From: Trogon surrucura
Lineage: Eukaryota > Chordata > Aves > Trogoniformes > Trogonidae
Length of the DNA: 64,000 bases
Reading direction: 5' to 3'
Assembly: GCA_020746105.1 (NCBI GenBank)
Contig: CM036643.1
Coordinates: forward strand, 558,001 to 622,000
A program made the translations under genes and the position numbers. Positions within the stretch are counted from its first letter, which is position 1. The number at the start of each line of letters is the position of its first letter. This document shows, piece by piece, positions 8,401 through 30,992 of this stretch. Under the pieces are notes generated by a model, which was not told the DNA's origin, made no database searches, and saw nothing but the letters and a program-made list of their open reading frames with translations.

Positions 8401-9547
8401 CCATCCTGTCGGTCCTTACACATTTCTCCTCCTCTGTCAGGGCAACCTGGTGAACTTCTTGCGCACACGGGGCCGGGCACTCGTCTCGACCCAGCAGCTC
8501 CTCCTGTTCGCTCTGTGAGTCCGTCTCCCTCCCCCTGGGCTGGGGACCGGGGCTCTGTGTCCCACTGGGCAACCCGGTGGACACGCAGTGACACCGTGCT
8601 CTGCCTCGCTCGGCCACGGCAGGGACGTGGCTCAGGGCATGGACTACCTGGAGTCCAAGAAGCTGGTGCACAGGGACCTGGCTGCCCGCAACATCCTCAT
8701 CTCTGAAGAGAACGTGGCCAAAGTGAGCGATTTCGGCTTGGCCAGAGTCAACCCCAAGGGCGCGGACTCCTCTTTGCTGCCCGTGAAGTGGACGGCCCCG
8801 GAGGCTCTCAAACACAACGTGAGTGATGGAGGGAAGGGAGTGGGGATGGAGGCGCCTCAAAGCAGCTCACCCCCTTGGATCCCCCTCTGCTTGTCCTCAC
8901 TCCTGCCAACCCGCTCCTGGCACGTTCAGCCCCGCATCTCCTGGAATGTGGGCTCTGTCCCATCCAGCTCCTGCCCTGGTGTTTATCAGGAGATGGGGCG
9001 GCTCCGGCGGGGGGCGGTGGGCGGTGGGAAGGGAGGGGGTTTGCACCCCGGGGAGCTGGAGGTGGTCGGGGGCAGGCACTGTCTCCTCAGGGACGGGTGG
9101 GGCCCCAGCATGGACACCAGCCAGCTTCAGCCTCCCCTCCTCCTGCCACTGCAGAAATTCTCCTCCAAGTCGGACGTGTGGAGCTACGGGATCCTTCTGT
9201 GGGAAACCTTCTCCTTCGGACGAGCGCCCTACCCCAAGCTGGTGAGTGCTGGGCTGGGGGATGCCACAGGTCACACCCTGGGGACATCGTGCCATCCTCC
9301 GGCCAGGGTGAGCCCCTGATGGGAAAGGGAAGGGGGGTCCCAGCTAGCTTCTCCATCCTGCCAGAGCCTGAAGGAGGTGACAGAGCTGCTGGAGCAGGGG
9401 TACCGCATGGACCCCCCCGAGGGCTGCCCGCCCGCCGTCTATGCCCTGATGAAGAGCTGCTGGGAGCTGGAGCCGGGCAAGCGGCCGTCCTTCAAGAAAC
9501 TTACGGAGAAGCTGCAGAAGGAGCTGAAGTACCTGAGGGATGTTTAA
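5459..9547 (+). CDS. MATK: MATK, megakaryocyte-associated tyrosine kinase (CSK-homologous kinase)
   Basis: CSK-family non-receptor tyrosine kinase; family members phosphorylate the inhibitory C-terminal tyrosine of Src kinases. Coding exons: 5459-5467, 5656-5769, 5913-6028, 6354-6573, 7562-7655, 7757-7822, 7980-8079, 8170-8254, 8441-8514, 8623-8818, 9155-9241, 9365-9547. All have GT/AG ends and compatible phases and give 447 aa. The order is SH3 (about 10-70), SH2 (begins WFHGKI at 81), kinase (about 195-440) with GQGEFG loop (201-206), Lys221, HRDLAARN (309-316), DFG (Asp329) and WTAPEAL. The gatekeeper is Met263 as in MATK, where CSK has Thr. The activation loop has no tyrosine, as expected for CSK-type kinases. 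The start is supported by an in-frame TGA at 5447-5449; the first coding exon encodes only Met-Ser-Gly. The probable 5' UTR of that exon begins at 5411. Confidence 0.96.
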
Positions 9548-10881: not shown

Positions 10882-12294
10882 ATGGCCTCATTCTTCACGG
10901 CTGCCCTGAAGGGCTTCCAGCGGGGGGAAGAGGAGCCACCGCCCAAGGGGCACCCCAAGGATGGCAAGGCGGCCGCGCTGCCCAACGGCATGGCCCGCGA
11001 GGAGTTTGAGGAGTACCAGCGGCAGCTGCTGGAGGAGAAGTAAGGCTTTGCTGGGGCTGGAGGTATCACTGGAGTCCCCCACATGCAGGGGTCCACCCAG
11101 CATGAGCTGTCCCCGGGGTGGGACAGGGACGGAGATTCAGCCAGGGCAAGGGGCAGGGGCAGAGTGGGTGCCCCTTAGCACCTCTCCCCACACACCGCGA
11201 TGTCCCTGTGGGTGCTGGCACGGGGCTGGGACAGTGGCTTGGTGCTCTGTAGGTGAGAGGGGGCACCCCTCGGTGTCAGCACCCTGAAGCAGTGGGGGTC
11301 TGATGCTGGTCCAGGACAGGAGCTGGCATGGGGTTGCACCCGGGTCTGGGTGCCGTGAGGACCCAGTAGCCCAGCACCTGAGAGCTGAGAGGCCACGGGA
11401 GAAGCAATTCCCTCCAAGTGGCACCTTTGCTGGGGGCGGGGGCGCAGGATGTGACCCCTGCCTCTGGACCCTCATCCTAACTCTCCTGTGGAGCTTTGCA
11501 TCCCCTTCTCCTCCCACCCTGGCCCGGGGCTGGCACAGCCACGCTGCTGCCGGAGAACCAGGGCGATGCTGGGGAGTTGGTTCTGGTGCAGGGGGCTTAG
11601 TGATGTGAGGTGTGACAGTGGCACCTGCTGCTGCAGGATTGAGCGGGACAAGAGCTTTGCGCAGAAGAAGGCAGGACGGGCCACTGTGCGGATGCACCTG
11701 CGGGACAAGTACCACCTGGCCCAGGTAAGGACCAGCCCCACCGTGGTGGCACCTCGGGGATCTTCCCCTGGCCCCTCCATCTTCCAGGGCAGCCCCGGGC
11801 TGGGTGGCTGCCAGGCATCCCCCAGGGCCGGAGATGATTCCTGAAGAGGGCAGCAAACGGCTGCTGTCTCCATCCACTCTGTCCGCCCGCCCACGCGTCC
11901 GTCCAGCCGTCCAAATCTGGGACTGGACAGTCCCGGCGTGCCCCCATCATCCCCACTGCCCCCGCAGAGCCTGGCTGCCCTGGAAGGACCCTTTCTTCCC
12001 CATCCTCCCCCTGCACCCACGGCGGGTGGCTCCCCAAATCTGCCCACCACCCCGACACTGTTTCCCACCCATACGCAGGACGAACGGGATGACGCGCAGC
12101 TGCACGTGGCCGGTGGCAAGGTGGAGCTGCCGCAGGAGCTGGCCGCCATGGTGCACAGCGAGGAGGAGGAGGAGGATGGCGGCGCCGGGGCCTTTGCCTT
12201 CCTGACGAAGCTGCGTGAGGTGGACCTGCCGGCGCTTCGGGACCGCGCGCTGGGCAGCGTGGACGAGGTGAAGGAGAAGTGTGCCCTGATGTAG
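10882..12294 (+). CDS. Complexin of the CPLX3/CPLX4 type with C-terminal CaaX box
   Basis: Complexins bind the assembled SNARE bundle and clamp or promote vesicle fusion; the CPLX3/4 subfamily works at retinal ribbon synapses. Exons are 10882-11039, 11637-11724 and 12079-12294, giving 153 aa (human CPLX3 and CPLX4 are about 158-160). Visible features: N-terminal MASFF, the REEFEEYQRQLLEEK segment leading into the accessory helix, the SNARE-binding central helix with MHLRDKYHL, the VAGGKVELPQEL block, an acidic Glu run, and the C-terminus CALM (150-153), a farnesylation-type CaaX box. CPLX1 and CPLX2 lack a CaaX box. In human, CPLX4 adjoins RAX on chromosome 18, and this gene adjoins RAX2, so it is probably the whole-genome-duplication sister of CPLX4. 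I know of no human gene at this position, so I assign no symbol. The Kozak context at the start is weak (C at -3). Confidence 0.92.
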
Positions 12295-12592
12295 CAATGC
12301 TGCCCGCCCTGCCAGGCGGTGATGCCGGCTCAGCCCCTGCCCCGCTGCCATCCTAATGGGGGGGGGGGTTTACGGGTGTCATCACCTGGGGATGGGGGGC
12401 TCAATACATGTGCTGGGGTGGTTTTTCTCTCCGAAACCCTTCCCTGTTACTTTTCCACAACGTGCTGGGTGGGTGCTGGGATGTAGGATGCTTGGGGCTC
12501 CTCTAACCATGCTGGCATGAACCCCCCAATGGGGTGAGATGTGGTCCCCGATGCTCTGTCAACCCCCCAGGGCCTCACACACCCTTTGGATC

Positions 12593-12598
12593 AATAAA
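12593..12598 (+). terminator. Poly(A) signal of the complexin gene
   Basis: AATAAA, 299 bases after the complexin stop codon, the first canonical hexamer in its 3' flank. Confidence 0.7.
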
Positions 12599-13879
12599 CA
12601 CGGCGTTTGCCAGCACCAGTCTAGTGTCTCTGCCGCACCCCTCATCTGCACGAGCCCTGTCCTGGGCAGGGGGAGGACACGATGACACAGCTACAGCAGA
12701 GCTGCTCCATCCACGTGCCCCTGAAGCCAGCAATCGAACCATCGCGCTCAGCCACCAGATCCGTCCCCCACTTCTGCAGCAGCCCCCCAGCCCCAGCTGC
12801 ACCCCAGCCCCGCACGGGGTCCAACAGGACCTGGTGCCCGACCACAGGGCATCTTCTGGGGGCAGCACTGCTGGGGGGAGTGTGGCCGCGTTAACCCTCC
12901 CTCGAGCATCTGCCTGCAGGGGATCGAGGGGTTCCCTTGGGTGGGGGTGCCCCGTTGCCTCCTGCCTCTCTGGGCACTCACTCCCTGCTCCCAGGCGTTC
13001 GGCAGCGGCACTGGCTTAAACGCCGCCGTGCCGGAAGGCTGGGGGCTGCTGAGATCACTAATACCTGCCTATTTTAGCGAGGTCTAATCTGCCTGAGTCG
13101 CCTGTCCCCGAGGACTAAGCTAGCTGAACCCTTGTAAAATGTATCGCCAGCGCTGGCCCCGATGGCACCTCCCGCCGGAGCAGGAGCCTCCGGGGAGTCA
13201 CGCTGTGCTCGCATGAAAGAAAGGACGCGCTGAGCCGCCTCCGTCCTCCCCACGCCGGGGCCATCTGCTCCGGAAAGGCCTTCGGGGATGGCCCTGCCCC
13301 GGCTGGGGTGGTAGAACCCGGCGCGGCGCGGGTGGGAGTTGTGCCACAGGGCGCGTCGCAGTCACGAGAGCCGCGGGTCTGAGCTGGAGCACCTGGAGCC
13401 GCGGCGAGGAAGTCCCCGGGTGCGTGGGGTGCTCGGTTGCCCCCGCGGGCACCCACCCCTCCAGGGACCCAGTCGAGGGGCTGGTGGCTACTGGAGCACC
13501 CCGGGGAGGGAGCGACAGGCACGTTGGGGCTTCACACCTGGGACCTTCCTCGTGTTCGGTGGCCCTGTTGTCCCTGCCATCTCTGCTGTCCCTACTATTC
13601 CTGTTCTCCAGTCTTTCCTCAGAATTTGCAAAATCTCCCATTTGGGCACACAAAAAATCCACCCATGTTGCACAGGATGGGGACACCAGTGTCCCCAGCT
13701 GTCCTCCGGCCGGGCAGCAGCCACAGCACCCGGCGCAGCTCTCCATGGGGCTGGGGCTTGACACCAAGTGCCAGCCGCTGGGACGGTGGCACTAAGGTCC
13801 CCAACGTGCCTCATCACAGCAGGTTCCTCCATCCCCACCCCACACCAGGGCCCCTTCCCACCCTGACAGCAGCCTGACT

Positions 13880-13942
13880 CCCAGTGCTCCCAGTGCTCCC
13901 AGTGCTCTCAGTGCTCCCACTGCTCCCAGTGCTCCCAGTGGG
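13880..13942. repeat. 9-bp tandem repeat, seven units
   Basis: Seven consecutive copies of the unit CCCAGTGCT with one- or two-base changes in the fourth, fifth and last copies. No coding role is apparent. Confidence 0.9.
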
Positions 13943-14209
13943 GCTGTGCGGGGGCTCCCAGCAGGGCCTGGGATTCGGGTCAGGACCCTCCGCCAGGTCT
14001 CCTTGGCTAATCATCCTGCCCCCCCCCCGCCCTCCCCACGCTGCCACCTGCCTCCCGCTCAGCACCCTTTTGGGTCACCCCTGCCGCCTCCCCGCCTGCC
14101 CAAGGCCTCTTAATGAACTAAAAAAGTGATAAATCCTCGGCCGAGCTGGTCACGTGAGGCCGGTGGCCCCCGGCCGCCCCCCCGCCCCGACCCCCGCCTC
14201 CGGCCCCAC

Positions 14210-14490
14210 CGCCCCGGTAAGCTGACGCAGCGTCTCTAAGCGTTAGCAGCTTTGCCCGCTAATAGGATTAGGGAGGTTTAAAACTGTCATTTGAGTGAAC
14301 TAAACCCCCTGATACTCTGCATTGCACCTTCTTAACCAATTTGCCTTCAATTAGGGTAATTGGGAAACTAGCAAAGAAGTATAGCATTAATATTTTAAAG
14401 TGATGAAGCGATTACGGGCCTTGGACGAGGAAGCAAATCAATTTGCTATCTGCTCCTAAAAGGCAATTATAATCATTTGGCAAATCAGCC
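14210..14490. promoter_or_regulatory. Candidate conserved enhancer island upstream of RAX2
   Basis: An abruptly AT-rich block inside GC-rich flanks. It holds GGATTA (14265-14270), the 15-base palindrome CAATTAGGGTAATTG (14348-14362, two everted homeodomain half-sites around a GGG spacer), GATTA (14410-14414) and TAATC (14470-14474), with several further AATT/TAAT cores. Such islands near developmental homeobox genes are often conserved non-coding elements. Conservation could not be tested here. Confidence 0.45.
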
Positions 14491-15439
14491 TGCTGGCCTC
14501 CCTCCGTGCGAGCCAACACCTTCAGGCGGCCGGCGGGGCCGGCACCGCGCAGCCCGTGGCCAAAGCCTCTGCCCCCGACACCAGCCCCAGAGCCTGAGAC
14601 CACAGGTCCTGGCACGGTGGCACCTCCCCAGGGTGGGGGACACCAGGGGGAGGCCACTGAGGACCACCAGAGCAGGGGACCCCATTTCTTGCATCCTCCA
14701 AGGAGGGCCGAGGTGGTCACAAACACCAGCCTCCGGCAGATCCAGGTGCCTGTTTGCATCCCCAGCCTCACACGTCATCCTCGTGCCTGGGGATGTCCCC
14801 AAACCCCCCCCAAAGGCAGCACCTCCTGTCCCACACCTCCCTGCTGCAGGTGGGGGCTGGCAGAGCTGTGTGGTGTGGGAGTGTCACCCCATCCCCAGGG
14901 GCTGCCTGGCCCCAGGAGCGTGTCACCCCATCCCCAGCATGGGACTGTGTTGTCCCCTAGGGTGGTGGCACGCCATCCCCATGAGAGCATCACGCTGTCC
15001 CCAGAGTGGTGTCGGACAGAGTGGGTGGAACAACACGACACCGTGATGGCATCAGGGCCCGACCTGGGGCACTGGGGTGGCTGCGGGGTCGGGGTGGCTG
15101 CGGGGTCCCGGCTGCAGCAGCCACCCGGCGCGGGCGTAGGAGGGGGCTCCAAAAACCCCAGTGGTGACATTTGTTTGTCATCTGAGAGGGGAACGGCGGC
15201 GAGGAGAGGAAGGGAGTGGGAGGAAGCCCAGACGGCGGCTGGGGGTGGCACATTTGCAGGTGGCAGGAAGAGGTTTTTGGGAGAAAGTAAAAGTGAACCA
15301 AGAAAGAAAACGCAAGAGGGGATCTGTGCAGGACTGGGCACCCCCAGCCCAGAGCACCCCAGGACCCTCATCGTGATGTGATGCTCACATCGTGGTGCTC
15401 CCATTGTCCCCCAGGCCGGGGTCCCTGGGGCAGCAGTGG

Positions 15440-15840
15440 GAGCTGGGAGCAGGGGGTCGGTGTTCCTGCACCCCAGCCCGGCTGTCTCTGCCCCACACCC
15501 TTTGGGCAGCCCCTCGGGGTGTCCCCACGCCCAATCCCCTGTCCATGATTTATCCTCACGCCCAGTCCCATGGACACTGCCCAGTGCCTACTCCCCACCG
15601 CTGGTCCCCCTGCCTGGTCCCCACTCCTCTTCCCCACGCCCTGTCCATGCCAGGTCCCCAAGGCTGGTCCCTACACCCAGACCCCAGAGCACCTCCCAGA
15701 TCCCCACACCCAAGTCCCCGCACTCGGTCCTCACAGCTGGACCCCACGCCCTGTCCCCATCCCTGTCCCACACCCAACACCAGCTGTCACACCCAACCCC
15801 ACGCCCGGTCCCCATCCCTGGTCCACCCCCCCCGGGCAGC
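15440..15840. repeat. C-rich low-complexity repeat tract
   Basis: A degenerate array of CCCCAC(G/A)CCC-like units separated by GTCC and TGGT spacers. The complementary strand is rich in GGGG runs and so has G-quadruplex potential. No gene is visible. Confidence 0.7.
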
Positions 15841-16049
15841 ATCCCCGGGGCCACACACGCCGTCACTGGGGCCACCCCCGTGCTTGCCATCCCCGCCCGG
15901 TGGGAAGGACACCCAGCACCGCAGCATCCCCGTCACCCGGACCCTGTCCCTGGGGCAGAGCTTCGGCTGCCCAAGGAAATCCTCCCCCCTCCCTCCTCCC
16001 CCCCACCACCGCCCCGGCCTTTCTTCTCCTCTCCCCCTGTTTCTAATTC

Positions 16050-16320
16050 TTTTTCCTCGCCCGTAATGAGGGGATTACAAGGCAAACTCCAGCAGGACGC
16101 CTTTGTGGGGAGACAATCTGAGTGGGGAAGGCAGTTCGGGGCTTTGTCCGCCGCAGCCCCCCCGGACCCGCGCTGGGGGGACATTTAGAGCAATTACTTG
16201 TCCAGAAAGTAACTGTCAATCATTCTTAAAGGGGAAGGCCTCCAATTAATAACCTCGTCTTAATCCTTTGGACTCATTTCCAATCTGCGGTGCCTTGGTG
16301 ACATCTGCAACACTAAATAA
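16050..16320. promoter_or_regulatory. Second candidate homeodomain-rich island upstream of RAX2
   Basis: AT-enriched block with GGATTA (16072-16077), a CAATTA core near 16190, CCAATTAATAA near 16242 and TAATCC (16261-16266), set in C/G-rich low-complexity DNA. The motif content resembles the 14.2-14.5 kb block. Confidence 0.35.
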
Positions 16321-18099
16321 AGATTCTCCCGAGCCTTAGCGCGGCGGTTCTGTGACAAATAAGAAGACTAGAGGCAACTTTGGCTGCCAAAGCTGCGAGA
16401 TTGGTGAGGTTGAGCCGCTTGTTTGGTTCCCAGGAGGGACCGGCAAAGTTAAATACTCCTGGAAAAGCCGAGTTGGGCCCAGCAGGTAATGCCGCCGTTT
16501 TATTCCGATTCGGGAGGAAGCGCTGGGGGAAGATGTTGAGAAAGGGAGCGGGTGGCCCCGGGGATGGCACCTTTCCCCGGGGGCTTGGGAGCGGGTCAGC
16601 GTTGCTCAGCGGGAACCGTACCGGGGCTGGGGGGCAGGAGCCACACACGCGCACCCCGCCCGCGGCAAACAGCCCCGCCCGGGCCGGGGGGGCCAAATCT
16701 TGGCACCCGGACGGACTTTCCGAGGCCAAAAAAGGGGACTTGGCGAAAACCAGGGTGGCCGTCGCCCCCATTGCCAGCAGGAACTTGTCCTCTCTGATGC
16801 TCGGCTGCTGGGCAGCAGCGGGGAAGCAGCTTTTTTACCCACTTCAACAAGAGCTCGATACCATTTCCGTCGCCTTTTGGAGCGTTTTCAGTAACAGTTA
16901 CCCCCTTCCTGGCTGTCAGCCCCCGCGGGAAAACCACGGATCGGGGTGTCGAGCGGATGAGGGGGAAGGAAACCTGCCCAGGGCTTTGGGTCCGTGTGGT
17001 TCCCAGCATAGTTTTAAAGCCTAAGGGCTTAAACCCAAAAATTGCCGCCAGGGTGACGGTGGCCACTGGAAAATGTCTGACGGGAGCCAGGAGGCAGCTC
17101 TCCCCGCCCCACACCCACTCAGCCCTGCTCGTTTGGAGGCAGGACCCCCAAAACGCCGACGGCGAAGGCTCGGAGGTCCCGGGCACGGTCCCTGGAGGAT
17201 GGGGACCAGGGGGTGGCCGGTGCCAATGTCCCCCAGCCTGACCCCACCAGGGTCCCCCCCTTCCACACCCAGGATGCCCACGAGCCTGGCCAGGCTGAGG
17301 CGGGGGGAGTTGGGGGGACTTTGGGGGGCTCCTGGCCCTCACACCCTCCATCCCACCAGGTCCGATGCTGCCGAGTCGCTCCTGCTGGGTTATTTTGTCT
17401 GGTTTTTGCTTCATTCCTGCTCCCACGCCAGGACTTGCTGTTTCGCGGGGGTGCTTTCAGGTGGGGTCAGGGTGAGGGGTTATGATGGGGCTGCCCCAGC
17501 CCTGGCCCCGACCTCCATCACCGCACCTTGTCCCCGTCCCCACCCATGGCTCCACCTCTTCTCTCCTCCTGCTTGCCCCAACTTGTCCCCAGCCCCACCC
17601 GGAGGCCCATCTCCCCCATTGCCCCCCCCACCACCCCAATGCCCATCTCACCCATTTAGTTTGTCCCAGCTCCCCCCAGTCCCCCTCCCCAGTTCCCCCC
17701 AAACCCCTGTGGGGTGCAGGACATGGCTGGACAGGGTAGCCAGGGATGCTGTGTCCCTTGGGGGGTCCATGTCTCTTGGGGGGGCTCAGGGGGCTCCAGG
17801 GGCTCACCCCTTCTCCCCTCTCCTTGCAGGTGCGGAGCTGCGCAAATGAGAAGCGGGTGAGTGAAAGCGGGATGGCAGCGGGGGGACCCCAACCCCTCCC
17901 AGTGTCCCCAGCCCCAGGACATGCACGACACTCACACGGTGACCCCCTCCCTGGCACCCACTCCCTCCTGCCCTGGAGCAGCCCCAGAAGACTGCAGCCC
18001 CCCCACAACAGAGGGGCCAGACCTGGACCCCCAGGGTGGGGAACCGGGGGGCAGCAGCTCCTAAATGCGCTGCATTGCACATGCAGCCGCCCCGCATGT

Positions 18100-18900
18100 G
18101 CCACGTGTGTGACACACGCTGACACACGCTGCACACGCTGACACACGCTGACACACGCTGACACACGCTGCACACGCTGCACACACGCTGCACACGCTGC
18201 ACACCTCACGTGCTGCAGACACCGCGTGTGCTGAACGCGGGGCCCCCCGACACGCTGCACCCACCGCCCCGCGCACGCCAGAGCACGTGCCCTGAGCACG
18301 CTGCAGAGGCGCTGGGCACACGCCGCGTGTGTGGGGCCCCTGGTCACCGCCCGCACCGCGTCCCCATAGAGTGCACTGCGCTGCACTGCGCTGCACTGCG
18401 TGCCCACGGCCACTGCCCATGGATTCGCTCTGCACCCACATGCCCTGCACGCCCCACGCTCCTCGCACAGGCGGTGAGCTGCACGCACCGCACACGCGCT
18501 GTGCACACACGGCACATGATGTGCACCGTGAGCACTGCGCACCCGCACTGCACCCGCACTGCACACCCACACTGCACACATGCACTGCACACACATCGCA
18601 CATGCACCACCCACGCACCGCACACACACACGCACTGTGCACACAGAGCACACGCTGTGCACCGTGAGCACTGCACTCACACACTGCACACGCACTGCAC
18701 ACACACTGCACACCTGCACCGCACACACATCGCACCCGCACCACCCACACACTGCACACGCACTGTGCACACAGAGCACACGCCGTGCACCATGAGCACT
18801 GCACACACACACTGCACACATGCACCCACTGCACACATGCACCCACTGCACACCCGCACTGCACACCCGCACTGCACACACACGTGCGCGGTGCCCCGGG
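18100..18900. repeat. CA/TGC-rich minisatellite array
   Basis: Starts with an array of units resembling ACACGCTG(A)C at about 18110-18210, contains a run of the ten-base unit CTGCACTGCG near 18375-18400, then continues as diverged CACTGCACAC(A/C) units to about 18890. Open frames in it encode only biased Cys/Val or His/Thr strings. It ends about 1 kb upstream of the RAX2 start codon. Confidence 0.9.
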
Positions 18901-19259
18901 CGCTGCAGGCGCAGACGTCACATCGCACGCACACTCGGGGACGCCGCAGCCGCCCTGCAGCGCACACGCCCTGCGCACATGCCCTCCCTGCACACACACG
19001 CATCGTGCCCCCCATCCGTCGGGCGGCCCCCCCGCAGAGCCCCGGCGCGGCACAGACACTTGCCGCCCGCATCACCGCGCACGGACGCCCCACGCGTGCC
19101 CAGCCTGAGCAACACTCAACCACTCAACTACACACATGCCACCACCTTGGGACCCCCATTTATTCCCTCCCGGAATGAATTGGCATTCCCTTTCCTCCGT
19201 GCACCCGTGTGGGCGTTAGGTGAGTTTTCACCGGCAGGTCCGGGCGATGCAGCACCTTC

Positions 19260-19790
19260 CCCCGGGCAGAAGAGCCCCGGGATTACGGTTTTCTGCCCCA
19301 TTTCCAGGCTCGCCTACATCCTCATAGTAGAAAAAGACCTTTAATCCTCAGCAAATACTGCGGGAAGATCTCAGATGCCGGATAAAAAGCTTAAAGATGA
19401 AACGTTGCAAGGGTTGAAAATGCTTATGAGAGTGCAGAAAATGGTTATTAGCCGGGGGATGCCGCCAGGTCACTCCAGCCACGCTCAGGGACTGACACCG
19501 GGTCCTGGGGAGGCTCAGAGCTCGTACCTGGGGAAGCAGGGCTGGAGGAGAGGAGCTGGGCCAGGAGGAGGGGTTGCCCCCTCCACACCAGCCCAAGGGG
19601 AGGTGGGGTCGGCTCTCAGAGACGACACTTCCGTAAAATCCTCCTCTTGAGGCGAAACTTGACTTTTAGCTTTGGGTGGATGCACCAGCCTGGCCATATC
19701 TCGTGGTGGGGGACCCCAGGACCCCAGGTCGGTCCCCCGGGTGCCACAGCCACAGGATAATGCTGCAGCAGAAGAGAGGATTACACCTTT
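19260..19790. promoter_or_regulatory. RAX2 proximal regulatory region
   Basis: Three CRX/OTX-type sites lie within 640 bases of the RAX2 start codon: GGATTA at 19280-19285, TAATCC at 19342-19347 and GGATTA at 19778-19783. The start codon follows an acceptor-like CCCCTCGCAG ending at 19905, so an upstream non-coding exon is probable and the promoter lies somewhere in or before this block. Confidence 0.4.
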
Positions 19791-19913
19791 GCGTAACCTG
19801 TTTCTCGGGCCTCTGCACCCTCCCGTCCGTCCATCCCCAGCCTGGGCTTGTGAGGGGTGGTCCAACGGCCCCATACCCTGGCTAACCCCTACGGTCCCCT
19901 CGCAGGTGCCACC

Positions 19914-22338
19914 ATGTTCCTGAATAAGTGTGAGGGGGACCTGGGCGAGCTGCGGAAGCCGGGGGACGGCGAGGGCACCCCGCCGGCCACCGCCGAGGAG
20001 GAGCAGCCCAAGAAGAAGCACCGGAGGAACCGCACCACCTTCACCACCTACCAGCTGCACGAGCTGGAGCGCGCCTTCGAGAAGTCTCACTACCCCGACG
20101 TCTACAGCCGGGAGGAGCTGGCCATGAAGGTCAACCTGCCGGAGGTCCGCGTGCAGGTAGGGAGGACGCCCGGTGACCCCAGCACCCTGAACCTGTCCCC
20201 TGGGCAGCGGCAGAGGGATGAGCCCTGTGCTAAAAAGCTTCGCTCTGCTCCCAGCTCCACCGCCACCCGCCTTGCTCCGTGCCCCGGTTTCCCATCGCTC
20301 CACAGAGCGTCTCCACAGAGCCAGCTGCTCCTACCAAAACCAGAGAAGGGATTTAAAAGCTGAGCCTTGTCACCCAGCAAGGTCCCAGTTCACTCCACGT
20401 GCCAGAGCTGGGTGGTTTTTAGATATTTTCCAGTGGCAGGACTGGGGAGTCTCTCTCCCTGGGCTACAGAAGAAGGCTCCACGGGGGAAGGCTCAGGCTG
20501 GGGAAGAGCCTGAGGTCCCACCGGTGCTCCGCATCCCCCCCAGGAGCGATGGGGAGAGGGAAAGGTTCAGGGAGCTGAAGCAGTGACAAACCCACTGTGA
20601 AGCAAAGCAGTAATACCCTTAGAAATGCACCGAGTTTCCCACACCCCAGTCCCAGTCCCAGAAGACACGGTCTTTTGCTGGGCGAGCCCAGACCGTAGGG
20701 ACAGCTCTGCCAAGGAGCTCTCTGAGGCACTTTCCTAGAGCCATAGAATCATTTTGGCTGGAAAAGACCTTTAAGATCATCGAGTCCAGCACTGCCAGGT
20801 CCACCACTCCCCGTTGGGTCCCCATGCGTTGCCTGATCTAGTAGAGAGGTGTCCCTGCCCGTGACAGGGAGGTTGGATTAGATGATCTCTAAGGTCCCTT
20901 CCAGCCCAGGCCGTTCTAGGATTCTGTGACTCTAAATCACGTCCCTAGCAGCACGTCTTTTAAACGCCTCCAGGTTTGGTGACTCCAGCACCTCCTCATG
21001 CAGCCTGTTCCAGTGCTTCACCCTTGCAGTGAAGAAATTATTCCTGATATACAATCTAGACTTCCCCTGGAGCAACCTGAGGCCGTTTGCTCTTGTCTTT
21101 GTTCCTTCTCACTTGTCATGCGGTTGAACAGACCGACCCCCACTCTCTACAACCTCCTTTCAGGTAGTTGTAGAGAGAAATAAGGTCTCCCTGAGCCTCC
21201 TTTTCTTCCAGCTGAACAACCCCACTTCCCTCAGCCACTCGTCATAACACTTATGCTCTTAATCCCCTCTTCTTTGGACATGAATTTCGCACCAGTATAG
21301 CCCAGTGCCCACCAGCCCACCAGCCCAGTGACCAGCCCATGGGAGCCAGGCCTTTTGCAGTCCAGTTGTTCTTTTTTGACCCCCCCTCTGCATTGCGCAA
21401 CCCCTGTGCCACTGGGAGCTCGGGGACACAGGGACCAGCACTCCAAAGAGCCTCTCCTGCAGGGTGACACGTCACCGCTGCCCTCAGCTTGCCGGGTTTT
21501 GCTGGAACCAGGGGTAGTTTGGCTTCTCGGAGTTCTTCCTGGGGGGATTTTGAAGGCCAGATGACGTTATATCGAGCACTGTACAGGTGTTTGTGGGGCT
21601 GGGGTGTGTGTCCCCACGGAGCAGCGAGGGCAGGGCCGCACGGTGACACCTCTCTTTCCACACCTGGGAGATGCCGTCAGCCCGTGGGGTCTGTGGCGGA
21701 GTTTGGGCAGAGGCGTGCGGTGTGCTGGGCGGTCGCTGGAACACTGGGGGGTGGGATTTCCCGCACAGGACATCCCACACGGAGCCCTTGGGGTGGGGTA
21801 CAACACAACGGGACACCCTGCGTGGGGCAAATGTGGGGTGCCCTGCAGGGGACGAGCCGGGCACAACGAGCTCACTCTGGCTCTCCCCTCCCAGGTCTGG
21901 TTCCAGAACCGACGAGCCAAGTGGAGGCGGCAGGAGAAGATGGAGGCCAGCTCCATGAAGCTCCACGACACTCCCGTGCTCTCCTTCAACCGGCCCCCCA
22001 TGACCCCCAACGTGGGGCCCATGAGCAACTCCCTCCCGCTCGACCCCTGGCTGACGTCGCCCATCTCCAGCGCCACCACGGTCCACAGCATCCCCGGCTT
22101 CATGGGAGCCCCCCAGGCCCTGCAGCCCCCCTACGGCGGGCACTCCTTCCTCAACACCCCCCCGCCGATGGCGCAGGGCATGCAGCCCATGGCCCCCGCG
22201 CCCTACCAGTGCGGCACCACCTTTGTGGACAAGTACCCGTTGGAGGAGGTGGACCAGAGGAGCTCCAGCATCGCCTCGCTCCGCATGAAAGCCAAGGAGC
22301 ACATTCAGACCATTGACAAGACCTGGCAGCCCATTTGA
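19914..22338 (+). CDS. RAX2: RAX2, retina and anterior neural fold homeobox 2
   Basis: Paired-type homeodomain transcription factor of photoreceptors and retinal progenitors, nuclear. Two coding exons, 19914-20156 and 21895-22338, joined in phase 0, give 228 aa. The homeodomain spans residues 36-95 (HRRNRTTF to KWRRQEK) with Gln at homeodomain position 50 (residue 85) and Asn51. The intron splits it just before [10 protein letters not shown], the usual site in this family. The C-terminus carries an OAR motif ([18 protein letters not shown]) and ends in WQPI. The N-terminus ([13 protein letters not shown]) is short and lacks the long N-terminal region of RAX, which favours RAX2. The start has a good Kozak context (GCCACCATG). 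The 1.74-kb intron contains two CR1 pieces. Human RAX2 is shorter (184 aa). Confidence 0.96.
20738..21262 (-). mobile_element. CR1 LINE, minus orientation, interrupted
   Basis: Read on the minus strand this is a CR1 3' portion, beginning at 20738 with its ATAGAATCATTTTGGCTGGAAAAGACC-type tail and including the ACAACCTCCTTTCAGGTAGTTG block near 21150. It is interrupted at about 20811-20933 by a plus-oriented CR1 tail. It lies in the RAX2 intron, antisense to the gene. Confidence 0.88.
20811..20933 (+). mobile_element. CR1 LINE 3' tail nested in an older CR1
   Basis: The recognisable tail begins near 20838: GAGGTGTCCCTGCCCGTGAC, then GGTTGGATTAGATGATCTCT, AAGGTCCCTTCCAGCCCAGG and ATTCTGTGACTCT, the standard plus-strand CR1 end. 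The minus-oriented copy resumes at about 20934 with AAATCACGTCCCTAGCAGCA, showing insertion into a pre-existing element. Confidence 0.8.
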
Positions 22339-23859
22339 TGAACGCTCTCCTCCGGCCCCACCGGGCTTTGGCTCCTGCCCCCAGCGTCGGCTCGGCCCCA
22401 AGGGGGGCGACGGTGGGATGCTCGGCAGGACCAAAGCCGGCGCAGGGCAGGGATGCCGGGCTGCACCTTCCCCCAGCCGAGCCAGCACCGTCGGTGGCAG
22501 GGGAGTGAGCTGGGGTGCTGGTGGGACCCCCCACTGCAGGGACCACCCTGGCAGCCACCCACAGCCCCTCTGCCTTGCTAGGGCTGAGGAGCTGCCCAAG
22601 GCTTGGGCATCCCACCATGCCACCCACCACTCCCGGTCGGACAACTCCTTCCCCCAAACTCTTTCCCTTTCCTATTATTATTAATTTTTTTTTCTTTCTT
22701 TTTTCTCTTTTTTTTTTTTAAATGCTGCAGATTTAAACAAAACCGAACAGAAAAGCTCTAGTTTTGTAGGGAGTACTTGGGGGGATTACTTTTTTTAGCT
22801 GTGTCGGGGCATGACGCTGGTCGTGCCAGTAGATGCACCGGCACCGAGAGGACGGTTGTATTGTGAGTAAAAAGATAAGTCGAACGGCTGCCGCGTGCTG
22901 GAGTCGGGTGCTGCCGGGGCCCTGTCGCCGTGCCACTCTGTACCGGTGCCGCTCAGGGGCTGCAGAGCCTCTGCCAGCGAGGAACGTTTCGGGGGGTTGC
23001 GGGGGCACCGTCCCACCCAAGCAGGGATGACCTGATCCAGCCCTGGCTGGGGCTGGACCCAGCTTTGGGCTGCCCCGGCGCCTCCTCACGGGGCGTCATC
23101 TGCTGAGCAGCCCCTCGGAGGCTGCGCCCGCCGCCCCCCGCCCTAATTGCTCCCAGCGGCGCTCGCCCGGCCACATGTTGGTGGCTCAAAGCCGCCGTAA
23201 TTGTGTCGGTGGGAGGGTGCGTGGCAGCGGGAACACCTCATCTCCTCCCCGCACCGGGTGCTGGTGAGAAGAGGGGTGGGCTGGGAGCCCTGGGGTCCGG
23301 CGGCGAGGGGAGCCAAAGGTGGGTTTGCCCCCTGCCAGCACCTCCTGCCGGGTGGGACCAGCCGCGGGGCGAGGCGCTGCGTCCCCCAGGGTGCCCAGAC
23401 AGCTCGGCCCTGGCAGAGATGGCTGAGCCCACGGTGGCTTTGGGGTGCCGAAGCACGGCCAGGACAGCGAGAGACAGGGCTCATCTGGGATGACCGGGGT
23501 CCCTGGAGAGGTGAGGCAAACGCCCGCCTTCCCCCCCCAAAACAAGAAGATTTCCTGGGAAAATCATCCTGCTTCGGACCCGACGACAGCCACAAACCGG
23601 GGCTTTGCTGGGCCAGCCCCATCTCCACCATGTCCCCATGTCCCCGCACGGGTTGGACCCTGCTCAGCACCAGCCCTCCTTCCCTGGGGAAGGGTCTCCC
23701 CCAGTCCAGCAGCCCCCTGGGGACGGGCTCTGACATCCCCACAGCCCCAGGGTCAGGCAGGAGCGGCCGGGATGCCACCGGGCCAGGCGAGGCACTGACC
23801 CCGGTGAGACCCTTCTCCTTGTCCCCCGTCCCCCGGCTGCTGCTGCTCGTCTGCTTCGT

Positions 23860-24335
23860 TAGTGACAATTAAACCTTTAACAACCCATTAAACGCATAAT
23901 CGATGCTCCCCGGTTCCCCAGCCCGCCTAATGGGCTGGGGGGGGCCGGGGCGAAGCGGCCCCAGCAGAGGCGTGCTCCGGCGGGGACATAATGAACCAAC
24001 GGCCGCGGAAGTAATGGGGTTTGATCCGGGGGAAGGGACGCGCTCAATGGGGGCTGCGCTTTTCACATGACATAATTGCTGAGGCTGGCGCCAGCCCGGG
24101 GCACCCCTGGGCCTCCCGAGCGCCAACAAAAGCCGCCTGGCGCAGAGAGCGGGCGGCTCGGCACCCCCCGACCTGTTTGATCGGAGCCTAATTGGGGCGA
24201 GGGTGCTCCCCCACAACCGCCGGCCTCCATCTTGCAACCGCCACCCGAAAGCCAGGCCGCGGAGAGGTCCCGGCGCGAGGATGCGCCTGCCCACGGTCCC
24301 GGAGTTATGCGAGTTATTCAAATGACCTGATTTGC
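23860..24335. promoter_or_regulatory. Candidate regulatory islands downstream of RAX2
   Basis: Several AATTA/TAAT cores (near 23867, 23888 and 24190), TAATC (23897-23901) and an NRL/MAF-like TGCTGA half-site (24077-24082) next to ATAATTG. The AT-rich patches alternate with GC-rich DNA. Function is inferred from motifs and from proximity to RAX2. Confidence 0.3.
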
Positions 24336-24484
24336 GTGGGGTGGCACCGGCGTGCCCCAGGTTACCTTGGCAGGGATGTTGGGGTACCCTCGCCCCTTCC
24401 CTCCCGTGGGCACCCCAGGAAACAGGCAACATTTCGGACCCCCAAAAATGCCATTTAAATGCAGGATCCAGCTGTGCTTCCCAC

Positions 24485-24490
24485 TTTATT
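24485..24490 (-). terminator. Candidate poly(A) signal of the paracaspase gene
   Basis: TTTATT on the plus strand (AATAAA on the minus strand), about 725 bases beyond the paracaspase stop codon. Confidence 0.45.
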
Positions 24491-25215
24491 GATGCTTGGG
24501 TTGAGACCCAACGGCACAAGCCCAGTGGCTCGTGCGGCCACCAGCACGTGGGGCCATGTTTGGGAAGATTCCAAGCAAAAAGGCAAATTTTCCCCACTAG
24601 ATCCCAATCCTGTCCTGAAATTGCTCATTGACCAGGTGGGGTCGGCACAGTCCTGCGCTTGAGGCTTTACTGGGAGGACTGGGTGGCACTGGGAACACTG
24701 GGGACAGCGGTGGGGGGGGCGTTTCTCCCAGCCTCTCGTGGTGGAGCAGGAGTCCTTCCGCTCCCAACCCCTCTAATCCCCTCCCGTGGGATTTGCCCCC
24801 TAATCTGCTTATTTCTCTCTATTTCTCTTAGGCCTGAAGGAACCCAGCCCTGCCCCGGAGCGACGCCTCGCGCCGGCTGAGCTGTGGGCTCTGGGCACCC
24901 TGCCCCCAGGGCCACCAGGCAGCGGGCTGCGTGTGGGGCTGGTCCTGGTTTGGGGACATGAGGACAGATGTGCTCTGCCAGGGGATGTGGGGCTGGCAGT
25001 GCCTGCGCCCACGGTGGCAGCGCCGCAGATATGGGGCAGCCCCGAGCTGCAAAATCCCCGGCCAGCGGTCCCAAGCCCCGCACCCCTGTCCCAGGCCCCC
25101 TCCCTGCACCCATCCCCACACATCACCCCTGTCCCCCCCAGCCCCTCACCCCCCCCAGGAGGACAGAGGTGGCCGCAGGGGGCTGTGGTGACAAGGCGGG
25201 GGCTGCCTTGTCCCT

Positions 25216-28200
25216 CTACAGGGTGTGGGAGCTGGGGATGTCGGGGCTCAGGTTCTCCTCGGGGGTGTTGACCCAGGAGCTCCCCGCCGCCCCCCAGCTC
25301 TCGAGGGGAGAGGCGGAGAGGGGGCTGCCGGGTGGCGAGGGGGAGGCCGCCAGGTGCAGGTTGAGCTTGGCGATGAGCGGCTTCCCCACGCTCACCGTCC
25401 GCCTCTCCTCCACGAAGTCGTCCAGCCCGCGGTAGCGGTACTGCAGGCACACGGTGAACGCCAGCTCCTGCTGCGGGACACCGGCAGCGTGGGCGCCCGG
25501 CCCACGGCCACGTTTCCCCCCCCCGTCCCCCGCCCCGTGCGGCTCTTACCCGCAGCTTCTGCAAACCGCAGAGCCGGCTGTAGAGGCAGCGGGAGGGGCA
25601 GCCGAGGCTCCAGGCGTGTGCCAGGGGGCTGCCCACCTCCTCTGGGCTCTCCTTGTTGGTGCACTTGAGGTCCACATCCAGCTCCTGCCATGGGTGGCAT
25701 CGAGATGTGGAAACCATTGTGGGTCCCCCCACTCTATTCCCAGTGTCTCCCCAGTTTCGGTGACACGCTCCCACCTGGGGTAGGTCGGTGAGCCTGGCCT
25801 CGCACTTGGCGATGTCCTCGGGAGTGGACACCACGCGGGTGTAGATGATCATGATGTTGGAGAACTCGGCGGCAAAGCCCAGCTGGACGGTGACGCCGCA
25901 GTCAAAGAGGAGGTGCCGGCTCTCGGGCAGGACTGGGGAGGGGACAGGGAGCACGGGGCTGGGACCTGCAGGTGCTTGGGGCTGCACCCGTGGGGGAAGT
26001 GACAACTGAGGTCACCTCAGAGTGGGGACACCACCAGGCTGGTGGCTCTGTGCTGGAGGTTTCTCTCCTCTAAGGCTGGAGAATCCTGGCAGGTGCTGCC
26101 TGCCAGCTCTCCCTGCGGCTCGGCATTGTCCCACCCCAGTTCCAGTTCCAGCTCCAGACAGGGTGGCCACGACTCTCACCGTGAGCCTTGGCCCACTGCA
26201 GGTTCCTGGCGGAGGACTCGTCCCGTCCCGGCGGGCGGATGGGGTCCGTCAGAGCTCGTCTCTCCGAGAGGTTGCTGCGGAGCTCCAGCGCTTGGCGGCC
26301 CCGCGTGATCTCCAGCGTGCCCATGTCTGCGGAGGGAACGGGGGGGTGGGTGGGGGCTGTTGGGGGGCGTTGCTGTCCCCCACCACTCACCACTCACCCT
26401 CAGCCACCTTGTCCAGCAGCACCGTGATCTTCTCATCCTCCAGCAGCCAGCGCTTGAGGAAGGTGACGAAGACGCCGTTGGAGTGCTCGCCTTGGCTCAG
26501 CTCATAGGCTTCGGCGTCCGCACACCTGCAGGGATGGGGCTGCATTGGCTCTGTTGTGGGTTTCATCACACCCCTGGGAACTGGCCCCACTGAGGGGGGC
26601 AACAGCCCTGAGGAGGCCAAAGCCACGTGCCCAAGGCTCTACCCACTCCCATCAACTCATCCAGCCACTGTGCTGGGGGAAGGTGGGAGCCGTGGCCGGA
26701 TGCTGGATGCTCAAAGCATCATCAGCCCAAATCCCTCTGCCCTGGAGGAGCCTCGGGGATCAATCCCTTCTTGTGTTGCCTGAAGCTGAGCAACACCACG
26801 GGCACCTCCCTGCCCTGTAAGGGGCCGGGGGCTGCTGCTCTCCCACCATCCCAGCATCAACCCAAGGGAGTGATGCTGCCAGTACACGGCAGGAGACACA
26901 GATAGGGGAGCAAACAGGGCTGAGCCACGGCGTGGGCTGAGTCCCAGCCCCACTCTGAGCCAGGAAGCCCCGAGCCCATGCTGGGGGTGGTGGGGAGAGG
27001 ACCCACGTGGCGTAGCCGAAGACGATGTTGGCCGTGACCTGCAGCGCCCCAACCTGCGGGATGATGTCGTCGTTGAGGTTCCTGCAAGAGAAGTGCTGCT
27101 GGGCAGAGGCAGGACCTGCCGCCCCTCCAGAACCCACCTCAAGCCACCTTAGGCCCTGGGGTCTGTCTGTGCCCCTCTGCCCACTCATCCTGGTGTTTGC
27201 CAGGGCAGCGACGCTTCAGGGCATCCAGACAAAGCCAACAGGTTTGGATGGGACCCCGAGCAACGCCCCGCTCTGCTGCCCCGGGAACCAGCACCCACGG
27301 GCGCCCCTGTGCCGGGACCCGCCAGCGCGGCAGCTCCTCCCCAGGTGGCCTGGACTGTTTCACCTCTTGCGGCACATGTCGAGCAGGAAGATGTTGAGGC
27401 CGGTGCGGCGCTGCTGCATGCTCTGCAGCACCTGCTGCACGCACAGGCAGTGGGCCGAGGTGTAGGAGCTGGGCGCGTCGATGGGGACCATGAAGCTGTT
27501 GCCAAAATTTTCATAGCCATGTCCGGCGTAGTAGAGCAAACCTGCCGGGAGGGACAGAGAGTGGGTGACACCCCTTGAACTGCCAGTGCCCACTTGTCAC
27601 CCTGCCAACACAAAGCCACCCAGCTCCCCCCTGGCTGGAGCCACCCCGGCAGGTGTCACCGCACCGTAGACGCCCTTGTCGAGGAGGAGGAGGAACTCGT
27701 TGACAGCCATCTGCATCTCAGCTTTGCACAGGTCCAGCAGAGAGACCACCTTGAAGTCGAGCTGGCGGAGAAGGGCGCTGAGGGCGTGCACGTCCACCAT
27801 GGGCGCCTGCAGCTGCTTGTGGTGCAGGTACTGCATGTTGCCGATCAGCAGGGCCACTTTGTCCGTGGCTGTTGGGACCGGAGAGGGAGGCGCTGGGGAC
27901 AAAGCTGGGCTCCTGCCATCCCTGCTACCTCCAGCCCACAGAGGTGACACCTGGTTGTGGCCAGTGTCACCAGCCCCAGGTACTGAGGTGCCCCGTGACA
28001 TCCATGCCTCGCTGTCCGCTCTCCCCAGTGCACCCCTGGCCAAGTGGAGCCTTGTAGGGTGACAGTGGTGACACTGGGGACGGTCACAACCCCAGAGGGC
28101 CACCAACCCCTGCCAGGTAGGCTCTTACCGTACAGCTGGTGGGGGCTGACGTGCACGGGGGAATCTGGAAAGAGAGAATCAAGGAATCACAGGATGACAG

Positions 28201-30992
28201 CTTGGAAGAGACCTCAGGGACCATCTGGTCCAACTCTTTAAGGTAAAGAAATGCAGTTCAAATGAGATGGCCCAGCACCCTATCAACCATCTAAAGTCGA
28301 GGAATCCACCACTTCCCTTGGAAGACTATTCCAACATCTAGTCATTCTCATGGTGAAAAATTTTCCTCTGGAGTCCAACTGAAATCTCCCCAGGAGCAAC
28401 TTGTGTCTGTTATCCCTTGTCTTTTCCATGTGACTCATAAAAAGGGAGTCTCCATCTTCTTGGTGGCCACCCTTTATGTACTGGTACAGGGGAATAAGGT
28501 CTCCCCTGAGCCTTCTCAAGGCTGAACAAACCCAGTTCTCTCAGCCTTTCTCCGTATGGCAGGTCTTCTAGTCCTCTGATCATCAGAAATGCCACGCCAA
28601 GGCCCCCGCAGTGCCTGGGGAGCGCAGCGGGCAGAGCAGCGGGGACCTGCCCATTCTGCCCCCACCTACCTCCGTCCCCCTCCTGCCAGGAGCCTCCAGA
28701 GGTGAAGAGCTGGGGCCCTGCGGCACAGCGGGGAGTCAGGGAGCCCCATGTGCAGCAGCACCCCTCAGCACAGGCTGCAGCCCCCAAAAAACTTGGGGCA
28801 GCCACGGGGTGGGGGCCACGGAGGATCGCCAGGGGCCCTCACCTATCTCCACGTCCACTTCCCGGCTCCACGTCTCGTGGAAGAGGTTGAACACCCGGCA
28901 GGAGTAGCTGCCCCGCTCAGCTGTTGTCACCAGCTTCACCTGCCAGCGGGAGGGAGCGGCAGATGGGACACCACGCCGCGCTGTGCCGCGCCGTGCCACG
29001 CCGGGGGTCCGGCCGTACCTGGAGCCGGGGGGCCTGCCCACCCTCCACGGGGCGCCGGTTCCTGAACCACTGGTACTGGGGCGGGGGGTTGCCGATGGCT
29101 CTGCACTCGAGCACCAGCGTGTCCCCCTCGGCCAGGCGGCACGGCTGGGGCTGCCGCACGATCTTCAGCCCCGCCATGGTCGGGCAGTAATCGCTGGCTG
29201 GGAAGGAGATGGGGTAGCAAATTTGGCACCCAGCCACAGCAAGGCACCCACGGCGGGCATGAGCCAGCGGGCACGGGGAAGACACGGGGTGTTCAGCTCC
29301 TCCGTGGGCACCATCACCCCAGCAAAGAGAACCCAGAGAACCTCGAGGTTGAGCCAGAGCGTAAGGTGGCAGGTGGTGCCCCACGGGAGCTACCCCTGTC
29401 CCCACAGGACGAGCGGTGCCCCACGGCTGCCCGCCCAGGGAGGCAGATCTCGGCGCCCACCTGAGCTGGGGCTGCTGCTCTTCTCCACCTGGACGTGGGC
29501 CCACCTGGAGAAAGCGAAGGTGGCCCCGCAGTTCACGCGGCAGATGTACCACTCGGGCTGGCCTGGCGGCGCGGCCGTGTCGATCACCAGCTCTGGGGCC
29601 GTGGCTCCAGGCACCTACAAGGCAGGAGGGGGCCAAGGAATCAGGGGCAGCCTCCCACCCGTCCAGGTGCCACGGATGGGGTCTGGGGACCCTGCGTGAC
29701 GTGGTGCGGTGTGTCCTCACCTCCCGCTTCCCGCAGAACCACTGGTATGTGAGCCCAGGGGGTCCAGTCGCGCAGCAGGTCAGGGACACCCGCGTCCCCT
29801 CCATCACCACCTGCGACTCCGGCTGCACCGTGATGCGGATCATGTCCTGGACTGTGCGAAAGGAGAGACCAGCCTGGGCTGGCTGAGAGCCCCATCGCAC
29901 ACCATCCCATCACATCCAGTCCCCTCCTGTCCTGTCCCATTATACCCGGTGGCACCTCCTCCCACAACGGCCTGTGCTCCCCCATCCCATCCCATCCTAT
30001 CACCTCCTGTCCCATCCCACCCCTCTGTCCTATCCCAACCATTCAGTGCCAGCCCACCCATCCTACCCCATCTCATCCTGTTCTGTCCTATCGCACCCAA
30101 CTCCCTCCTCCACCCCACCCTGTCCCATGTTGTCCCACCATAATCTGTCTCATCTCATCACACTCTGTTCCATCCCATCCTCTCTTGCCCCATCACAACC
30201 TGTCTAACCCTGTCTGGTCCTATCCCATCTGGTCCCATCACAGCCTGACCCACCACATCCCGTTGCCCACCAGCCCCATCCCACCACATCCCATCCTATC
30301 TCACCCTATCACCTCCATCCCACTCCACCCTGACCACAGCTCTGCTACCAGAGCAAGACCACCAGCAGGAAGAGCTGCTCCTCATCTCCCCCTTCTTCTC
30401 TTCTGCTGAGCCCGTCCCCCAGTGCCCCAATCCAAGCCCCATGGGACCCCACCGTCCATCCCTACCAGCGCTGCTGAGGACCTGGCAGGCCTGCGTGTGC
30501 CCCATCCTCTCCAGGCAGCCCAGCAGGTACTTGAGGGTGCAGTCGCGCTCAGCCAGGAGCTGCAGAAGGCACTGCGTGGGGCTGCCGCGGGGCTCCAGCA
30601 CCTTCAGCGAACACATCTCCAGCTCCTCGGCGCTGCAAGGCGCCCGCAGCTCTCAGCGCCGCAGCCCACCTCCCTCCTGGGGAGGACGGAGCCTCCTACT
30701 GGGAGGCTTGGCAGTGCCCCCAGCCCAGGCTGTGGCCACGACGGGGGGTGGGACGCACGCGCTGCTCTCTCAGCCCATGGCAGGGCTGTGCCCACGTGCA
30801 TTTCGTCATGTGGTTGGGGACAGACGCCCAGAGATGCTCCCCCCCCAGCCCTTACCTGCATTTGAAGCGTTTCTCCAGCCCGGCCACCTCGGCCAGCTTG
30901 CGCCAGCCCCGGCCGGCGTTATCCAGGAGCTCGCAGAGCCGGGCCACCACCTCCTCGCCCAGCGAGCCGATGGGCATGCTCCAGTCCCCCAT
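25216..30992 (-). CDS. MALT1-like paracaspase (probable PCASP2), death domain-Ig-Ig-caspase
   Basis: Fifteen exons with consistent phases: 30992-30856, 30632-30466, 29851-29721, 29614-29461, 29197-29019, 28939-28843, 28164-28129, 27868-27665, 27541-27364, 27081-27007, 26525-26398, 26326-26180, 25932-25775, 25684-25550, 25470-25216; 726 aa. Death domain about 5-100 (the BCL10-binding part in MALT1); Ig1 102-196 with LTCCATG and YICRVN cysteines; Ig2 197-288; 12-residue mini-exon 289-300; caspase-like domain from 301 ([10 protein letters not shown]) with catalytic His376 in [11 protein letters not shown] and Cys425 in LLDMCRKR, spaced 49 residues as in MALT1; then a third Ig-like region. MALT1 is an Arg-specific protease and NF-kB scaffold. 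This protein is about 100 residues shorter at the C-terminus, where MALT1 carries its C-terminal TRAF6 sites. It lies beside RAX2, not RAX, so it is a paralogue, not MALT1 itself. Start chosen at MGDWSM (A at -3, G at +4); MPIGS at 30977 is the alternative. Confidence 0.93.
28173..28590 (-). mobile_element. CR1 LINE 3' portion in paracaspase intron 6
   Basis: On the minus strand it shows the CR1 core (GAACTGGGTTTGTTCAGCCT) and ends GAGGTCTCTTCCAAGCTGTC followed by a TGATTCCTTGATTCT tail. It is sense-oriented relative to the host gene, and its tail ends about eight bases before mini-exon 7, so the acceptor polypyrimidine stretch is largely CR1-derived. Confidence 0.88.
29890..30335. repeat. 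Pyrimidine-rich CCCATC/CCTATC minisatellite in paracaspase intron 2
   Basis: A diverged array of five- to six-base units such as CCCATC, CCTATC and CCTGTC. The transcribed (minus) sense is G/A-rich with repeated GGGATGGG and can be expected to form G-quadruplex or purine-rich structures. Confidence 0.85.

Follow-up and report, generated by a model that had tools for sequence, protein, structure and literature searches.

A 64,000-nucleotide stretch of the Trogon surrucura genome (hereafter the window; G000:C30:558001-622000, on the 5.8-Mb contig C30) carries, in this order, MATK (+ strand), a complexin gene (+), RAX2 (+) and a paracaspase gene (-), followed by segments of an MRPL54-like gene, APBA3 and TJP3. 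This interval is very probably the RAX2-side copy, produced in the early whole-genome duplications of vertebrates (2R), of an ancestral kinase-complexin-RAX-paracaspase block, and the block is kept nearly whole here. An earlier note on this DNA had described the cluster of complexin, RAX2 and paracaspase and regarded it as an old sister copy of the CPLX4-RAX-MALT1 neighbourhood. Both claims are borne out: all three genes have unbroken GT-AG models, the limits given in the note (10882 and 30992) are exactly the two outer start codons, the paralogous loci agree in intron phases, order and orientation, and the trogon's own MALT1 groups with human MALT1, leaving the window gene outside.

Gene Structures in the RAX2 Interval

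Each gene model has GT-AG introns and a single open frame; splice sites were picked by visual inspection that took the frame into account. Comparisons were made within the trogon's own genome (1.166 Gb, 164 contigs), with human MALT1 as the sole sequence from another species.

The complexin gene (10882..12294, +) has three coding exons (10882-11039, 11637-11724 and 12079-12294) and encodes a protein of 153 amino acids that matches Pfam Synaphin (4e-25) and ends in CALM, a CaaX terminus, both features of the complexin 3/4 subfamily. RAX2 (19914..22338, +) has two exons (19914-20156 and 21895-22338) and encodes 228 amino acids, with 36 residues ahead of the homeodomain (Pfam Homeodomain, 4.5e-25; OAR, 1.3e-9); it is identified by its RAX-type homeodomain and OAR and by its neighbours, MATK and the MRPL54-like gene. 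MATK, a CSK-homologous kinase (5459..9547, +), has 12 exons encoding 447 amino acids with the Pfam order SH3-SH2-kinase. With its residues 1-185 as query, the best score was obtained for a full-length CSK chain (3.6e-53), and among SH2-only chains MATK/CHK (1.3e-48) came ahead of CSK (7e-33).

The paracaspase gene (25216..30992, -) comprises 16 exons encoding 742 amino acids in the domain order Death-Ig-Ig-C14-MALT1_Ig, with Pfam matches to MALT1_Ig (5.5e-53), Peptidase_C14 (2.6e-29) and Ig domains. The Death match (2.7e-4, 21.4 bits) falls slightly below the Pfam cut-off of 22.6, but a death-domain chain among the solved MALT1 structures is matched there at 3.2e-22. MALT1 chains are also the top-scoring solved structures for the protein as a whole (E 4e-163), aligned from the death domain through the last Ig domain. 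The motifs AGHGYE and LLDMCRKR align with human MALT1, and we take them to hold the catalytic His and Cys, respectively. On its domains and predicted His-Cys pair, the protein is a type-1 paracaspase of the MALT1 family. The CaaX complexin and intact MALT1-type paracaspase of the earlier note are thus both present, and the window genes look functional as far as sequence features can tell.

Paralogous Loci on Two Other Contigs

The closest counterpart of the interval lies on contig C67, which carries LMAN1 (-, at 8785xxxx), CPLX4 (-, coding ~87823859-87835376), RAX (-, 87814428-87815631) and MALT1 (+, modelled exons 87708507-87733950). Read in reverse, this becomes LMAN1 +, CPLX4 +, RAX + and MALT1 -, so that order and orientation from complexin through RAX to paracaspase match those of the window. 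The genome search with RAX2 returned 107 matches, two of them RAX2 itself, and the best of the others were the two segments of RAX on C67 (87814428-87814895 and 87815425-87815631; 57% and 87%).

A second counterpart lies on contig C14, where CSK (+, 4503734-4506163) is followed after 8 kb by CPLX3 (+, 4514133-4516185), with a paracaspase 1.5 Mb away. The search with MATK gave 102 matches; outside the window, the highest scores belonged to long kinase reading frames of C11 and C67. The SH2 region of MATK had, among the matches listed outside the window, only C14:4503734, the start of a cluster of four matches running to 4506163 (51-71% identity), which we read as CSK. The window therefore unites in one interval the kinase-complexin link (CSK-CPLX3) and the complexin-RAX-paracaspase link (CPLX4-RAX-MALT1), each of which stands at a different locus elsewhere in this genome. 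An exon-by-exon search for LMAN-type lectins, with 15 candidates scored, gave 14 matches, none of them on C14. The CSK-CPLX3 contig is thus devoid of an LMAN-type match, whereas mammals have LMAN1L at that place (PMC2941751).

The Complexin Copies

Pfam Synaphin had eight matches in the genome: three on C14 (CPLX3), one at C67:87.84 Mb (exon 1 of CPLX4), the window gene, and three elsewhere (two at C67:45.2 Mb, one on C17) that we read as the CPLX1/2 kind. The C14 and C67 proteins end in KCAVM and KCSVM, respectively, and all three 3/4-type genes have three coding exons with a phase 2 intron followed by a phase 0 intron. Among these three sequences of one genome, the window protein is 48.6% identical to CPLX3 (72/148) and 43.2% to CPLX4 (64/148). 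Alignment columns shared by two members only number 17 for the window gene and CPLX3, 10 for the window gene and CPLX4, and 38 for CPLX3 and CPLX4. Of these sequences, the window complexin has diverged most, with no clear siding with CPLX4. The label "CPLX4-like" in the earlier note fits the 3/4 type and is loose as regards CPLX4 in particular. In the trogon's CPLX4 (C67:87823859-87835376), three apparent one-base shifts are seen, each of them at a run of one base (exon 2 has one shift, exon 3 two), reflecting either assembly error or decay.

The Paracaspase Copies

Peptidase_C14 had 29 matches in the genome, including two each at C67:87.72 Mb, at C14:2.96 Mb and in the window; the remaining ones are presumably caspases. 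A genome search with the window paracaspase returned 27 matches, namely 14 on C30 (itself), nine on C67, three on C14 and one on C23, the last being an Ig-type match of 35% (E 3.3e-4). The third paracaspase (C14:2956355-2964354, +) keeps HGYE and DTCRK and lies on the contig that also carries CPLX3.

The model of the C67 MALT1 gene, built by eye, has 14 exons; it omits the short pair of exons lying between Ig domain 2 and the caspase domain, and its last exon stops where the viewed sequence ended. Compared with the window gene, entry phase is identical in 14 of the 14 exons and exit phase in all 13 with a real exit, and exon length is equal in eight of 14. In the caspase and Ig3 region, the window protein is 68.5% identical to the trogon's MALT1 (259/378) and 66.2% to human MALT1 (251/379), whereas the two MALT1 proteins share 87.3% (331/379). 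The C14 paracaspase shows 48.6-49.8% identity to the three other sequences over ~290 aligned residues. In a maximum likelihood tree of the four sequences (LG+G4), trogon and human MALT1 are joined in 97% of 200 bootstraps and the window gene falls outside; the window paracaspase is therefore no recent copy.

These data bear on the idea that the window complexin and paracaspase arose from CPLX4 and MALT1 by recent duplication within the lineage or by retroposition, for which nothing favourable was found. It is contradicted by the conserved intron phases, by the 68.5% identity of the window paracaspase to its own MALT1 set against the 87.3% between trogon and human MALT1, and by the agreement of only 58 of 181 fourfold sites with MALT1, for which the NG86 dS is not computable, even if this divergence is inflated by strong differences in third-position GC. 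We consider this origin extremely improbable, and it was rejected on exon structure for both genes and, for the paracaspase, on the tree as well. Third-position GC amounts to 91% in the window paracaspase and 88% in the window complexin, as compared with 53% in the modelled C67 MALT1 and 75% in CPLX3.

Three paracaspases, PCASP1, PCASP2 and PCASP3, have been described in jawed vertebrates, and the TRAF6 sites TDEAVECTE and PVETTD are given as specific to PCASP1 (Staal, 2018; PMC5978004). Three copies are found here too. The window copy shares the type-1 domain order and active-site residues with this family, and differs from PCASP1 in that both TRAF6 sites are absent from it. The C67 copy carries PVETTD, and a TDEAVECTE-type site was not found by pattern in the C67 intron stretch scanned. 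The four-sequence tree, made up of the three trogon copies and human MALT1, would fit the expectation for a PCASP2, namely a sister of PCASP1 lying outside tetrapod MALT1, with PCASP3 more distant. From features and divergence rather than named orthologues, we read the window gene as PCASP2-type, the C67 gene as MALT1 and the C14 gene as PCASP3-type.

A Non-coding Element Shared by the RAX and RAX2 Loci

With exons masked, a blastn comparison of window 9601-33000 with C67:87695001-87895000 gave 27 hits, against one in the reversed-sequence control. Among the 25 that were printed, 19 belong to two stretches, 20732-21097 and 28175-28550; these match many places in the 200 kb compared, were read as dispersed repeats and were discounted. 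The two stretches lie in the RAX2 intron and in a paracaspase intron, respectively, and are presumably CR1-like. A single strong hit was found outside the repeats, pairing 14332-14393 with C67:87819876-87819815 (82% of 62 bp, E 6.7e-10). When only the complexin-RAX intergenic stretches were compared, the alignment grew to 78 bp (14316..14393, +; partner C67:87819892-87819815), with 60 of 78 positions identical and 67.7 bits. At both loci the element sits between complexin and RAX in equal orientation; its distance to the RAX2 start is 5.5 kb, and on C67 the first RAX exon match lies ~4.2 kb downstream of it. Both copies contain CAATTAG, which faces CTAATTG in the C67 copy and GTAATTG in the window copy and which we take to be a RAX/PCE-1-type site; neither matches the Sox or Otx consensus patterns used.

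That this similarity arose by chance or through a dispersed repeat, rather than from an ancestral regulatory element, seems to us quite improbable. Such an explanation could draw on the fact that there is one clear element only, the next real alignment (13686-13738, 34.7 bits) being barely above the 33.1 bits that 100 dinucleotide-shuffled versions of the C67 stretch reached at most, and on a genome-wide DNA search with window 14240-14520, which returned itself alone and missed the C67 copy. It is opposed by a score twice that of the best shuffle and by the same position and orientation at the two loci. As the genome-wide search missed the known C67 copy, other diverged copies of the element are not excluded by it. 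When the non-coding DNA 3' of RAX2 was compared with that 3' of RAX, and the window's with that around CPLX3, only weak matches appeared (best E 0.016 and 0.048, respectively).

In the preferred reading, the element was duplicated with the block and probably serves as an enhancer of RAX and RAX2, to which paired-class homeodomain proteins, perhaps including RAX, would bind. The earlier suggestion that the genes may share long-range regulation has no support in the comparison, which yielded one duplicated element, tied to RAX and not to the complexin or the paracaspase. A conserved element of Rax, CNS1, has been described ~2 kb upstream of the gene, with Sox2 and Otx2 sites (Danno, 2008, cited in PMC8335887). 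Both CNS1 and the present element are non-coding, conserved and upstream of Rax. The latter lies farther away and has no match to the Sox or Otx consensus, unlike CNS1 as described in that source.

Genome-Wide or Segmental Duplication

Six families of the window were searched (complexin 3/4, RAX, paracaspase, CSK/MATK, TJP and APBA, with MRPL54 left out), and all six have members on C67, on C14 or on both: complexin 3/4 and paracaspase on both, RAX on C67 and CSK/MATK on C14. The other TJP members lie at C14:8.48 Mb and C67:49.10 Mb, with a weak match on C1 (41%, E 6.8e-5), and the other APBA members at C67:21.12 Mb and C14:8.30 Mb, with a weak match on C21 (39%, E 5.4e-4). C67 and C14 make up 9.45% of the genome, and six of six by random placement would have a probability of ~7e-7, a figure that disregards the choice of these two contigs after the fact. 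Beyond the window, all 21 TLE_N matches, 16 of them above the curated cut-off, fall on C30, C67 and C14, TLE being 5 Mb away on C30. For a PIP5K gene just past the window (C30:637045), the relatives nearest in score are on C67 and C32, with weaker ones on C8, C26 and C9, and NFI members occur on C30, C67, C11 and C35. The presence of all six window families on C67 or C14 favours whole-genome duplication. The origin by vertebrate genome duplication proposed in the earlier note is supported in so far as the flanking families recur on the same contigs, as such an origin predicts; the paralogy pattern favours large-scale duplication and gives no date.

Several points weigh against this reading. 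The TLE, NFI and PIP5K families were selected with human gene maps as a guide and not at random; NFI and PIP5K have extra copies on C11, C35 and C32, and no NFI or PIP5K on C14 was among the matches listed. MATK's top matches by bits outside the window are on C11 and C67, the CSK gene of C14 having been picked through its SH2 match. The C67 members of TJP, APBA and PIP5K lie 39-67 Mb from RAX and the C14 paracaspase 1.5 Mb from CPLX3, so that linkage beyond the tight core is by chromosome only. Finally, lamprey and hagfish Rax fall outside jawed-vertebrate Rax plus Rax2 (Kon and Furukawa, 2020; PMC7137802).

Because of this last placement, Kon and Furukawa preferred a small segmental duplication that took place before jawed vertebrates diversified, apart from any genome duplication, and involved the ancestors of Malt1, Rax and Cplx4; their text does not exclude 2R and allows for delayed rediploidisation (PMC7137802). 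The tight core common to the window and C67, which consists of three genes only, would agree with such an event. It accounts poorly for the recurrence, on the same two contigs, of families from both sides of the core (MATK on one, APBA3 and TJP3 on the other), for the further complexin and paracaspase, each the third of its kind, that C14 carries along with CSK, and for TLE, which repeats the same three contigs from 5 Mb away. We hold the segmental event to be unlikely, and origin of the block by whole-genome duplication remains the preferred reading.

Relation to Published Work and Possible Function

The arrangement itself is already published for other vertebrates. Malt1-Rax-Cplx4 and counterparts around Rax2 were reported in elephant shark, gar and coelacanth (Kon and Furukawa, 2020; PMC7137802), with the same three families around Rax2 and the same pairing with the Rax block as here; the main text of that paper does not contain "matk", although its figures may show MATK. 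To this we add the link between MATK and CSK, the third copies on C14 and the shared non-coding element. The synteny of CSK-LMAN1L-CPLX3 and LMAN1-CPLX4-RAX has been described, as has zebrafish cplx4c, a third and divergent member of the subfamily with candidates in medaka and Xenopus (PMC2941751). In the trogon, too, CSK adjoins CPLX3, and LMAN1 and RAX adjoin CPLX4, whereas the window complexin joins both neighbourhoods. The loss of two paracaspases in mammals is also in print; the earlier note's further suggestion, that the human lineage lost the complexin too, is putative. Among the open-licence papers listed, judged by title and opening lines of the abstract, none joins MATK, RAX2 and a complexin or gives an element shared by RAX and RAX2. 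Within these bounds, the union of the kinase-complexin and complexin-RAX-paracaspase links in one interval and the duplicated element are apparently new, and the trogon further contributes a comparison of three loci.

Whether RAX and RAX2 arose through whole-genome or segmental duplication is a matter of disagreement in print (PMC7137802), and three paralogous neighbourhoods, whose contigs also carry members of the flanking kinase, TJP and APBA families, offer a direct test of this question. The shared element makes a concrete enhancer candidate for RAX and RAX2, both of them eye genes and one a human retinal disease gene (PMC6752271).

At the protein level, the window complexin would be a prenylated 3/4-type SNARE regulator expected at ribbon synapses, RAX2 a retinal homeodomain factor, and the PCASP2-type paracaspase a protease and scaffold expected downstream of BCL10. 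The three genes would act independently, with one RAX-linked element among them, and may be held together by ancestry and perhaps by the position of that element. More tentatively, and with slightly less than even confidence, we propose that a CSK/MATK-(LMAN1)-CPLX-RAX-MALT1 block existed before 2R and survives most completely at the RAX2 locus, the two other copies being partial, and that ever since the duplication the RAX and RAX2 loci have both retained an enhancer with homeodomain sites between CPLX and RAX, possibly as auto- and cross-regulation within the RAX family that would have helped to keep the complexin next to RAX.

Other Features of the Window

Downstream of the paracaspase, an MRPL54-like gene (32789..33605, -) was delimited from coding-score segments; the name MRPL54 is our assumption, weakly supported by a Pfam Ribosomal_L37 match to two joined segments (1.9e-5). 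Coding-score segments also give the approximate extents of APBA3 (33805..39413, +), which matches solved chains of the APBA family with APBA2 as the best, and of TJP3/ZO-3 (41095..47966, -), whose best solved relative is ZO-3. A long repetitive stretch rich in GCAC/CACTG is visible by eye 5' of RAX2, at window ~18100-18950.

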